Below are positions 14,081 to 24,529 of a stretch of DNA of 25,310 bases, piece by piece. The translations under genes were made by a program, and so were the position numbers. The stretch covers positions 1 through 25,310 of the IMG/VR virus record IMGVR_UViG_3300017763_000168; one strand, written 5' to 3'. Position 1 is the stretch's first letter; every line of letters begins with the position of its first letter. The notes under the pieces were generated by a model. The model ran no database searches and was not told where the DNA came from. It saw only the letters and a program-made list of their open reading frames with translations. The stretch is from a virus.

Positions 14081-15277
14081 ATGAAGAATTTTTTTCAATT
14101 CTTAACTGAAGCACAGACTAACGCAGCAAAGCAAGCTAAGAAGCTTGGACTGAAAGGTGATGGCCATGGATCATGGGTTGATCCAGCTGGAAAAATTGTT
14201 GGTAGAACTATAGAAGGTGAGTTAGTTTTCTCTAGTGGTAGAAAACCATCACAAGAATCTGATCCAAACAGACCTGGAAGAGCAGCAAGAGCTTTACCTC
14301 CAGAAAATCCTCCTCCTTCAGCACAACAAAGTGGTGGAGTTGGTGAACCCGAAGAGCAGGAAGAGGTAGAAAAAACTCGTGGTGCTGTTACTATTGGATT
14401 TGGTAGATTCAATCCTCCTACAGCAGGTCACGAAAAATTACTTGATACTATTAAAGATACTGCAGATGATGGGGAGTACAAGGTATACCCATCTCACTCA
14501 GTAGATCCACAGAAAAATCCTCTTGATTCTGAGACTAAAGTTCTCTTTATGAAGAAGATGTTCCCTGTGCATGCGAACGCAATCGTATACGATCCTGCCG
14601 TTCGTACTATACTAGATGCAATGAAGCAAGCCGATGTCGAAGGATTTAGTAGCGTCAACATCGTGGTTGGTGCTGACAGACAAAAAGAGTTTGAGGGGCT
14701 CGCGAACAAATACAACGGGCAACTCTATAATTTTGATGCGATTAATGTCATCTCTGCAGGAGAACGGGATCCCGATGCTGAAGGGGTGGAGGGCATGTCT
14801 GCTTCCAAATTACGAGCCTTAGCTGCTGATGGTGACTTTGATTCTTTCAAGAAAGGATTACCTAAGGCTGCTAAAGGAATGATTGCTCGGGAACTGTTTA
14901 ATACCGTTCAGAGATCTATGAGTGCTGCAGCTGTAACAGAAGGCATAGAAATGTGGCAAATTGCTCCTAAGTATGATGTAAAAACTCTTAGAGAGAATTA
15001 TGTTAATGGTAGACTGTTTGGTATGGGATCTCTTGTAGAGTCTTTAAATACTGGACTAGTTGGTAGAATTATTAGACGCGGTGCAAATCATGTAATCGCT
15101 GTTACATCTGAAGGCATTATGTTCAAATCTTGGATTAGAGATTTGACTGAATATGTTTCTCGTATTCCTTCCGGTGTTCCTGCGAGTAAAAGAGAAATCG
15201 GTACAGATTCCTATAGAGAGTATGTTCAAAAACTTACTCCTTTAGAGAAGGTGAAGTCATTTATAAATAGAAGTTAG
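14081..15277 (+). CDS. Cytidylyltransferase-like nucleotidyltransferase with capsid-targeting-like N-terminus
   Basis: A 398-residue multi-part protein. Residues 1-11, MKNFFQFLTEA, match the pattern of the T4 internal-protein capsid-targeting sequence (MKTYQEFIAEA), including an LTE|A site of the kind cut by prohead protease gp21. A charged and proline-rich linker follows. The catalytic domain begins with GFGRFNPPTAGHEKL near residues 106-120 (GxxxPxxxGH of HxGH nucleotidyltransferases), continues with IVVGADRQKEF and closes with GMSASKLRALAADGD near 236-250 (SxxxxR-type phosphate site). The last ~110 residues (ENYVNGRLFGMGSLVES, GLVGRIIRRGANHVIAV) form a separate beta-rich domain. It probably transfers a nucleotide onto a phosphorylated substrate such as NMN; the substrate is not evident. 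Confidence 0.85.
   Translation: MKNFFQFLTEAQTNAAKQAKKLGLKGDGHGSWVDPAGKIVGRTIEGELVFSSGRKPSQESDPNRPGRAARALPPENPPPSAQQSGGVGEPEEQEEVEKTRGAVTIGFGRFNPPTAGHEKLLDTIKDTADDGEYKVYPSHSVDPQKNPLDSETKVLFMKKMFPVHANAIVYDPAVRTILDAMKQADVEGFSSVNIVVGADRQKEFEGLANKYNGQLYNFDAINVISAGERDPDAEGVEGMSASKLRALAADGDFDSFKKGLPKAAKGMIARELFNTVQRSMSAAAVTEGIEMWQIAPKYDVKTLRENYVNGRLFGMGSLVESLNTGLVGRIIRRGANHVIAVTSEGIMFKSWIRDLTEYVSRIPSGVPASKREIGTDSYREYVQKLTPLEKVKSFINRS
15262..15269 (+). promoter_or_regulatory. Late promoter box TATAAATA
   Basis: A perfect TATAAATA inside the last codons of the nucleotidyltransferase, 33 bases before ATG 15302. T4 spacing places the transcript start near 15275. Confidence 0.7.
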
Positions 15278-22654: not shown

Positions 22655-24529
22655 ATGCTTTCCTCTGATCTTAACAAACTTGCGGACTCTTATGCTCAGA
22701 TTGTTTCTGAGGCAATTGATCCAAAAGGTGCAGCTCGTATGGATGCCTCTAAGGGCAAAAAGAAAGAGACACAAGACGAAATTGATAAGCGTCTAATGTT
22801 AGGTAAGTATTCTCCTGGCAGTAAGAAGAAGAAAACTGATAAGTGTACATCTGAGTCCTTCTATCTGAAGAGACTACAGGCTATGAATCCTGTATTTGCT
22901 GAACAGTACTTTGCTATTGCAGAGGTTCTGGTCGAAGATGGATATGAGAACTCTAGACTTATTGATAATATTGTAGAAGCATTTCCTCCTGAGGTGGTTG
23001 GGTATGAGTTTCGTGCTGCATTAAAGGCAGTTAACCCTAGGATCAATGAGAATCTTGACATTGCAGAGAAGCGGCAGGCAAGAGCTATCATTGTAGAATT
23101 TAATTTGATGAAGAAACTTGGTGATGCAAAACGCGCTTTATTTCCTGATGCAGCTAATTCTAACAATCCAAATGTAAGATCTGGAGTTCAGACTAGACAA
23201 TCTGCTTCCAATCTTTTTGGTCCCCCCAAGAATACACCAACCAAACCTGCTACTCCTCCTTCATCAACATTAGCTTCTCAGCAACCATCAAGCAGTCGTC
23301 CTCCATCTCCTCCAAAGAACCAAGGAACTGGTGAGCGTTCTGCTGCAGCAAATGTTGCCAAGCAACAGGCAGCAAAACTTGCTAATCAAAATAAATCTTC
23401 TACCCCTAGTCCTTCACCTAAACCTACACCTACACCTACACCTACACCTACACCTAAAGCAAAACCTACTGGTCCTATCACAAGTAGAGCAGCTATTGCT
23501 GGTGGTAGTAAGGAAGGTCAAGGTCCTAAGTCTGCTGCTAGCACCTACACTGGTGCCAATGATAAGACAAAGGTAGGTCGTTATAAAACCCTTGCACAAC
23601 ATCGTGCTGCTGTTGCTGCTAATAAGAAGTCAATGTCTGAGGGTAGTGTCTTTGAAAGTTTGAAGAAAGCCCGCGAGAATGTTGGTGCTTCTACCTGTTG
23701 GGATGGTTACAAGGCAAAGGGTACAAAGAAAAAGGGCGGTAAGGATGTACCTAACTGTGTAAAGGAAGAGGATCTCTTGGAAGCACCATATGGTGTATCA
23801 CCTAATAAAGATCCTATGGTTCCCAAGAGTCATAATGAGCGTATGAGAGAAGTTGGTGATAGAGTCAAAAAGCAAGGTGTTTTTCTACCCCCCTATATTG
23901 GTCCAGAACCAAAAAGAGTAAAAGCTAAACCAACCACTCAAACGGCTGGTTACGAGCCAGAAGGTGAGATGGTTGATGAAGGTTCTATCGGTGATAGAAC
24001 ACGAAAAGTTGTCGGTGATCAAAGACAAGGTGTTCATGGCGATGATGATGCAATCAGAAGAGACACTAATTCAATTAAAAATAATTTACTTAAGATGAGA
24101 CCTTATGGTGCAAAAGGATTCCCAGCCACAGTCAACTCTAGTAAAGATAAGAAGACCACTCAGGTAGCACACTTTGAACCAGAAGGTAAATTGTTAGAAG
24201 GTATTAGGGATAATGATCCTGAAAAGGGTACTAAGGAGAGAAAGGCCCGCCTTGAGAAGAAGCGTGGGATGAAGGTGGATGACCATCCTGAGTATCTTGA
24301 GACTAATATGAAGAAGCGTCAGGAAAATAACGAGAAGGCTCGTAAGGATATGGATAAAGTGAAGGGTCAGAAGAATCCTCACTTTGAAGATGTTAGTCAC
24401 TATGATGTAATCCTTGCTTTTCTTAGTGAGAACAACCTCATTGAGAGTGTAGATGAAGCAGAAGAGATCATGATGCAACTCACTGGTGCTCAGATTGTTG
24501 AGATCATTGATGAATTCATGAACAACTGA
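22655..24529 (+). CDS. Large low-complexity head-type protein with repeated modules
   Basis: A 624-residue, largely disordered basic protein driven by a perfect late box. Its order is: an N-terminal helix (DLNKLADSYAQIVSEA), a Lys-rich segment, a helical domain (residues 68-165), a Pro/Ser/Thr/Ala-rich linker with a Pro-Thr repeat near 255-270, the module CWDGYKAKGTKKKGGK...PNC (348-368) that I recall from many cyanophage proteins, paired GYEPEGEMVDEG (~434) and HFEPEGKLLEG (~506) motifs, and a C-terminal helical domain (HYDVILAFLSENNLIES to the end). LLE|A (374-377) and LLE|G (513-516) fit prohead-protease sites. A packaged or prohead-core role is inference. GAAGAGA at 22647-22653 is too close to the ATG to be a clear ribosome site. 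Confidence 0.8.
   Translation: MLSSDLNKLADSYAQIVSEAIDPKGAARMDASKGKKKETQDEIDKRLMLGKYSPGSKKKKTDKCTSESFYLKRLQAMNPVFAEQYFAIAEVLVEDGYENSRLIDNIVEAFPPEVVGYEFRAALKAVNPRINENLDIAEKRQARAIIVEFNLMKKLGDAKRALFPDAANSNNPNVRSGVQTRQSASNLFGPPKNTPTKPATPPSSTLASQQPSSSRPPSPPKNQGTGERSAAANVAKQQAAKLANQNKSSTPSPSPKPTPTPTPTPTPKAKPTGPITSRAAIAGGSKEGQGPKSAASTYTGANDKTKVGRYKTLAQHRAAVAANKKSMSEGSVFESLKKARENVGASTCWDGYKAKGTKKKGGKDVPNCVKEEDLLEAPYGVSPNKDPMVPKSHNERMREVGDRVKKQGVFLPPYIGPEPKRVKAKPTTQTAGYEPEGEMVDEGSIGDRTRKVVGDQRQGVHGDDDAIRRDTNSIKNNLLKMRPYGAKGFPATVNSSKDKKTTQVAHFEPEGKLLEGIRDNDPEKGTKERKARLEKKRGMKVDDHPEYLETNMKKRQENNEKARKDMDKVKGQKNPHFEDVSHYDVILAFLSENNLIESVDEAEEIMMQLTGAQIVEIIDEFMNN
23423..23452 (+). repeat. Hexanucleotide tandem repeat encoding Pro-Thr
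   Basis: Five perfect CCTACA units, flanked on each side by a degenerate CCTAAA unit (23417-23422 and 23453-23458). They encode Pro-Thr pairs with Pro-Lys at the ends, in the linker of the 624-residue protein. The unit is a multiple of three, so copy changes keep the frame. Confidence 0.95.

Follow-up and report, generated by a model that had tools for sequence, protein, structure and literature searches.

The nucleotidyltransferase ORF and its setting

The window (here the whole stretch of DNA that was analysed, 25,310 nucleotides) is a 25.3-kb viral contig whose gene content and order are those of T4-like cyanomyoviruses, with genes for DNA polymerase, recombinase, helicase, primase, nrdA and nrdB. 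Head genes are absent from this fragment, and comparisons of capsid proteins and protease were made in relatives. At position 14081 an ATG opens a frame of 398 aa, with the N-terminus MKNFFQFLTEAQ, which a strong PHROG profile match assigns to phrog_395 (cytidyltransferase); 561 phage records match this ORF, cyanophages forming the majority. From the N-terminus on, a peptide of ten residues is followed by a DGHG domain, a variable linker, the nucleotidyltransferase core and a C-terminal domain, located as follows:

14081..15277, + strand: CDS, 398 aa, cyanophage cytidyltransferase/NMNAT family (phrog_395; T4-GC190)
14081..14110, + strand: putative capsid-targeting propeptide, residues 1-10 (MKNFFQFLTE), from homologue N-termini, T4 reference sequences and PMC9026906
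between 14110 and 14111, + strand: predicted cut, the mature protein starting at Ala11
14114..14236, + strand: DGHG domain, about residues 12-52
14237..14374, + strand: variable low-complexity linker, about residues 53-98, from column entropy and pLDDT
14375..14860, + strand: nucleotidyltransferase core, about residues 99-260, PPAT/NMNAT fold
14402..14431, + strand: active-site motif GRFNPPTAGH, residues 108-117, TxGH type
14792..14815, + strand: second nucleotide-binding motif GMSASKLR, residues 238-245, ISSTxxR type
14981..15274, + strand: C-terminal domain, about residues 301-398

Mean column entropy in the homologue alignment is 2.72 bits for the linker versus 0.94 bits for residues 1-11, and pLDDT falls below 50 across residues 55-93 of the AlphaFold model. 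The predicted mature protein (residues 11-398) has a mass of about 42 kDa and a pI of 8.0. The C-terminal domain is also found without the nucleotidyltransferase, in P-HM2_164 and at two further loci (L188, L210), and the DGHG domain recurs at loci L188, L210, L199 and L356 (S-CRM01 128), in some cases in proteins lacking the nucleotidyltransferase core.

Two other ORFs of the window merit mention. One of 133 aa (26-427) has a DNA adenine methylase-like start (TPLRYPGGKS) and a DPPY motif; it is much shorter than the 291-aa methylase of S-SCSM1, possibly through internal shortening. The other (22655-24529), adjoining nrdB, encodes a low-complexity protein of 624 aa whose sequence includes YAQIVSE|A at residue 19 as well as stretches common to several phage families of unknown function; it could be a head or virion protein.

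The AlphaFold model of the 398-aa protein has a mean pLDDT of 74.6, and Foldseek matched it to PPAT and NMNAT/NadD structures with E down to 8e-6 and target TM-scores up to 0.69; the best fold matches are PPATs, with NadD and NMNAT structures nearly as good, all at 12-20% sequence identity. A sequence-profile search of the PDB gave no match, and scores missed the curated cut-offs of both PF01467 (17.4 vs 21 bits) and TIGR00125 (17.2 vs 27.7 bits). The motifs GRFNPP[TH]xGH and GxSASxxR are conserved throughout the alignment, with G108-P113, G116 and H117 invariant in its 36 sequences and G238, S240, A241, S242 and R245 invariant in the aligned sequences. As modelled, the enzyme has an NMNAT/PPAT fold with intact active-site motifs and, since both motifs are conserved, it is probably active. 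It thus resembles cellular PPAT (CoaD) and NMNAT/NadD in fold, TxGH motif and ISSTxxR-like motif, but differs from them in its extra N- and C-terminal domains and in scoring below the Pfam and NCBIfam cut-offs.

The preliminary description had proposed that a host nucleotide cofactor or RNA is modified; the fold indicates an NMNAT/PPAT-type adenylyltransferase, and no support was found for RNA as a substrate. We consider NAD the likeliest, if unproven, product. That the protein is packaged as proposed below, but acts on a substrate other than NMN (as a phosphopantetheine adenylyltransferase, a sugar-nucleotide synthase or an enzyme of some other small substrate), is nevertheless a serious contender, which we would place only a little short of an even prospect. 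PPATs provide the best fold matches and share the TxGH motif, the Pfam and NCBIfam scores lie under their cut-offs, nicotinamide phosphoribosyltransferase is absent from the S-SCSM1 annotation, and the phages with NadM in a published survey all had NadV as well (PMC9503650). On the other hand, NadD and NMNAT structures match almost equally well, and published annotations favour NMNAT (PMC9602691).

The N-terminal peptide and its counterparts in T4

The first eleven residues, MKNFFQFLTEA, are identical at 5 of 11 positions (M1, K2, F7, E10, A11) to MKTYQEFIAEA, the start of T4 IPII and IPIII, with F for Y at position 4 and L for I at position 8; the T4-like character originally noticed at the start of this ORF therefore stands. 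Only four N-termini among 501 proteins of two cyanophages reach 5/11 identity, three of them being of the tag type and two belonging to orthologues of the 398-aa protein. The corresponding degenerate DNA pattern (MKxFxxF[LIVMF]xEA) has a single match in the window and no match in 100 shuffles. Some particulars of the preliminary description need amendment. Residues 1-11 occupy 14081-14113, so that the end given for them, 14115, is two bases beyond, and after cleavage at LTE|A the mature protein would begin with residue 11 instead of 12. The set of T4 proteins cited as carriers of the signal is also looser than stated: in the T4 record IPII and IPIII have MKTYQEFIAE|A, IPI has the longer MKTFKEFTSTTTPVSTITE|A, and Alt, which had been included, is rejected as a carrier because its N-terminus reads MELITELFDE|D.

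Capsid-targeting sequences of the T4 type occupy about 10-19 residues at the very N-terminus. In T4, mutagenesis of IPIII showed targeting to depend chiefly on residues 4 and 7, and processing on residues 8 and 10 (PMC9026906). The window ORF has L8, E10 and A11, and shares with IPII, IPIII and IPI a short peptide at the N-terminus in which positions 4 and 7 are aromatic, position 8 is L or I, and E10 and A11 follow. Internal proteins of T4 are described as basic (PMC9026906), as tagged proteins tend to be here, and relatives of the window phage likewise have a gp21-type protease and an LxE|A capsid site. Unlike the T4 internal proteins (8-20 kDa), the cargo here would be a conserved enzyme of some 42 kDa that has a DGHG domain in addition, its cleavage and ejection being proposed by analogy. 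T4 Alt, an injected ADP-ribosyltransferase, provides a parallel for a head-carried enzyme that could act on the host at time zero, although its fold, chemistry and N-terminus all differ. A 54-aa hypothetical protein of T4, gp61.1 (NC_000866.4 18966-19130), starts MKTFKEFIKED and looks like a further tagged protein of that phage.

A first set of homologues had been partly seeded with MKNFFQFL and was set aside as biased; conservation was assessed instead in a set collected with residues 96-398 only, whose N-termini were read afterwards. All 79 readable N-termini, in 39 different versions, fit M[KR]x[FY]xxF[LIFCMV]xE, with positions 1, 2, 4, 7 and 10 nearly invariant and positions 3, 5, 6 and 9 variable; in the 36 aligned sequences F4 never changes and conservation of F7 is 90% or higher. 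At residue 11, 71 of the 79 have A (63) or S (8), and the other 8, with T (4), V (3) or N (1), fit the usual protease site less well. Judged from these sequences, conservation of the tag matches the T4-critical residues position by position.

Comparable sites occur in the capsid proteins. T4 gp23 has FLTE|A at residue 65, its known cleavage site, and capsid sites at residues 56-58 read FLAE|A in S-SCSM1, LLTE|A in S-CREM2 and MLSE|A in a relative whose nucleotidyltransferase is 91% identical to that of the window and whose contig also encodes the gp21 protease. LTE at residues 8-10 followed by A, already proposed as a gp21 site, fits the LxE|A prohead-protease site that these relatives have kept.

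Detection in virions of related phages

Orthologues of the window ORF, annotated as NMNAT or cytidylyltransferase, have been found by mass spectrometry in purified particles of three cyanophages. ORF91 of S-SCSM1, 48.8% identical to the window ORF over its full length and starting MKSFLQFLKEA, was detected in CsCl-purified virions (PMC9602691) and is labelled a virion protein in the genome record; T4-GC190 was found in virions of S-SM1 (PMC3037559), and ORF154 of S-CREM2, with the N-terminus MKNFSSFLTEA, in virions of that phage (PMC10665884). The S-SCSM1 and S-CREM2 proteins have the same type of N-terminus as the window ORF, although ORF154, unlike it, is without a DGHG domain. None of the three papers proposes a targeting signal or mechanism, and no cyanophage capsid-targeting sequence was found in the literature searched, which included few subscription papers.

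In S-CREM2 the tag is present on 5 of 52 virion proteins versus 1 of 167 others (Fisher p=0.003; 219 proteins). The five (gp6, gp13, gp14, gp136 and gp154) are unrelated, non-structural proteins and differ in annotated function. Two S-CREM2 virion proteins, moreover, have the DGHG domain following a similar tag: in gp12, annotated as Cas9-like, FASFMAEA close to the N-terminus precedes a DGHG domain, and gp14, a kinase, combines the tag with two DGHG-like stretches. The Cas9 label of gp12 and the SAM-hydrolase label of gp6 are the annotators' claims. Among S-SCSM1 virion proteins taken alone there is no significant enrichment (1/48 vs 2/234 others), and gp30 of this phage is tagged yet undetected in the published proteome of its virions. 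Any LxE[AGS] site, regardless of position, was rejected as a marker of virion proteins, its density in S-SCSM1 being equal in both classes (1.77 per 1000 residues in virion proteins vs 1.96 in others); the information lies only in the N-terminal pattern.

The authors of the S-SCSM1 and S-CREM2 studies themselves left open co-purification of the enzyme (PMC9602691, PMC10665884), and only 3 unique peptides represent ORF154 (PMC10665884). Under such an explanation the N-terminus would be an inherited feature of the enzyme family with no part in targeting, and presence in virions would reflect contamination by an abundant protein of the infected cell. This we regard as improbable. The protein was detected repeatedly in separate phages, its conservation tracks the positions critical in T4, and the same N-terminus is carried by unrelated proteins, a fact left unexplained by common descent of the enzyme.

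Distribution of the tag and the proposed delivery of cargo

When viral contigs were scanned for MKxFxxF[LIVMF]xEA, at least 120 proved to have matches, although the contigs listed may not be a random sample. Among the 125 listed matches, 124 mark the start of a gene and not one is internal to a gene. About 55 are members of the nucleotidyltransferase family or its terminal domains; the remainder fall into at least about 37 groups with no BLAST similarity between groups, and include GNAT acetyltransferases, glucosaminidases, DUF6267 proteins and proteins resembling lytic transglycosylases, 2'-phosphotransferases and deoxyribonucleotidases. A control motif with AE for EA is carried by only 58 contigs of the whole collection, and 18 of its 58 matches stand at ORF starts; T4-like genes are present on 113 of the 120 listed tag contigs versus 16 of the 58 control contigs. 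Of the listed tagged proteins outside the nucleotidyltransferase family, 85% carry a net positive charge, versus 22% of the proteins in two cyanophage proteomes (p=8e-25). A shorter pattern, applied to nine complete phage genomes, had 11 matches, which start genes, and its reversed control had none.

Virion proteomics is silent on place within the particle, and some tagged proteins are cell-wall hydrolase-like (PF01832, PF03330), an activity often located in tails; the tag might accordingly direct proteins to another part of the particle or to an assembly intermediate, such as the tail or baseplate, instead of the head interior. We think this less probable still than contamination: no annotated tail or baseplate protein of S-CREM2 or S-SCSM1 is tagged, the motif for cleavage is the one that the prohead protease recognises, and the internal head proteins of T4 use the same pattern. 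Finally, the strict location of the listed matches at gene starts could suggest an element acting at the DNA or RNA level, a translation-start signal for instance, that encodes the peptide by chance, but this is scarcely credible given that synonymous positions vary freely, that 65 of 76 listed non-nucleotidyltransferase proteins have I or L at position 8 (47% expected among L, I, V, M and F), and that most phage genes lack the tag.

Weighing against the proposal, the nucleotidyltransferase cores of RaK2 and P-HM2 are without the tag. Tag and enzyme can thus occur apart, as would be expected of a targeting module, though virion detection is still not guaranteed. In P-HM2 the untagged core and the C-terminal domain are separate genes, and the protein with the C-terminal domain, P-HM2_164 (L357 3583-4899), starts MKSLSDFTKKSKVAEA, like the long signal of T4 IPI.

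Overall, residues 1-10 are most likely a T4-type capsid-targeting sequence, and the reading as a whole, in which they mark an NMNAT-like enzyme that would be packaged, cleaved and ejected, is one that we hold with considerable confidence. The capsid-targeting reading of the preliminary description has strong support from the retention of T4-critical positions and of LxE|A, from the published detection of orthologues in virions, and from the tag on unrelated virion proteins of S-CREM2; packaging in the head is well supported by this evidence. Since the tag is of the T4 kind and recurs on dozens of unrelated marine-phage proteins, the enzyme is probably inside the particle, from which it could be delivered into the host cell. 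In the mechanism we envisage, the tag would bind the scaffold core during head assembly, so that the enzyme is enclosed in the prohead; a gp21-homologue prohead protease would cut after Glu10, and the enzyme of about 42 kDa (residues 11-398) would remain alongside the DNA in the mature head. Ejected with the genome when a cell is infected, it would immediately act as an NMNAT-like adenylyltransferase, whose most likely role would be to make or restore NAD from NMN, with presumed benefit to the phage. By analogy with T4, a role as an injected effector, as first suggested, is likely, and early injection with modification of a host cofactor plausible.

Authors of cyanophage studies have repeatedly met this enzyme in virions and could not tell cargo from contamination. 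A T4-type targeting sequence offers a concrete mechanism and a precise peptide prediction, namely a new N-terminus at residue 11. Delivery of a nucleotide-cofactor enzyme at time zero would also bear on how phages cope with NAD-depleting defences, perhaps by supporting or restoring NAD early in infection; other phages are known to reconstitute NAD against such defences (PMC12774641, PMC9503650).

From a broader perspective, we think it rather probable that MKxFxxF[LI]xE serves T4-like marine phages as a general delivery signal at the N-terminus, borne by dozens of unrelated and mostly uncharacterised proteins, that a second reusable cargo module, the DGHG domain, stands behind it, and that injected cargo can be read from sequence. 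With similar assurance we would count among such cargo nucleotidyltransferases, GNAT, glucosaminidase, lytic-transglycosylase-like, 2'-phosphotransferase-like and deoxyribonucleotidase-like proteins, the kinase and the annotated Cas9-like protein. If this wider census is right, the proteins that these phages bring into their hosts become directly searchable.

At one locus (L198 3736-4530, + strand) two adjoining tagged genes encode a weakly RNA 2'-phosphotransferase-like protein (ART fold) and a GNAT acetyltransferase, and S-CRM01 has a similar tagged acetyltransferase-like protein (L362). A terminase-adjacent family of about 102-109 aa (phrog_1742), tagged MKxFKxF[LMI]xES/A, has members in S-SCSM1 (44215-44535, gp30, L083/L363) and at loci L381, L384 and L248, as well as in a close relative (G001), and is a candidate cyanophage internal head protein.
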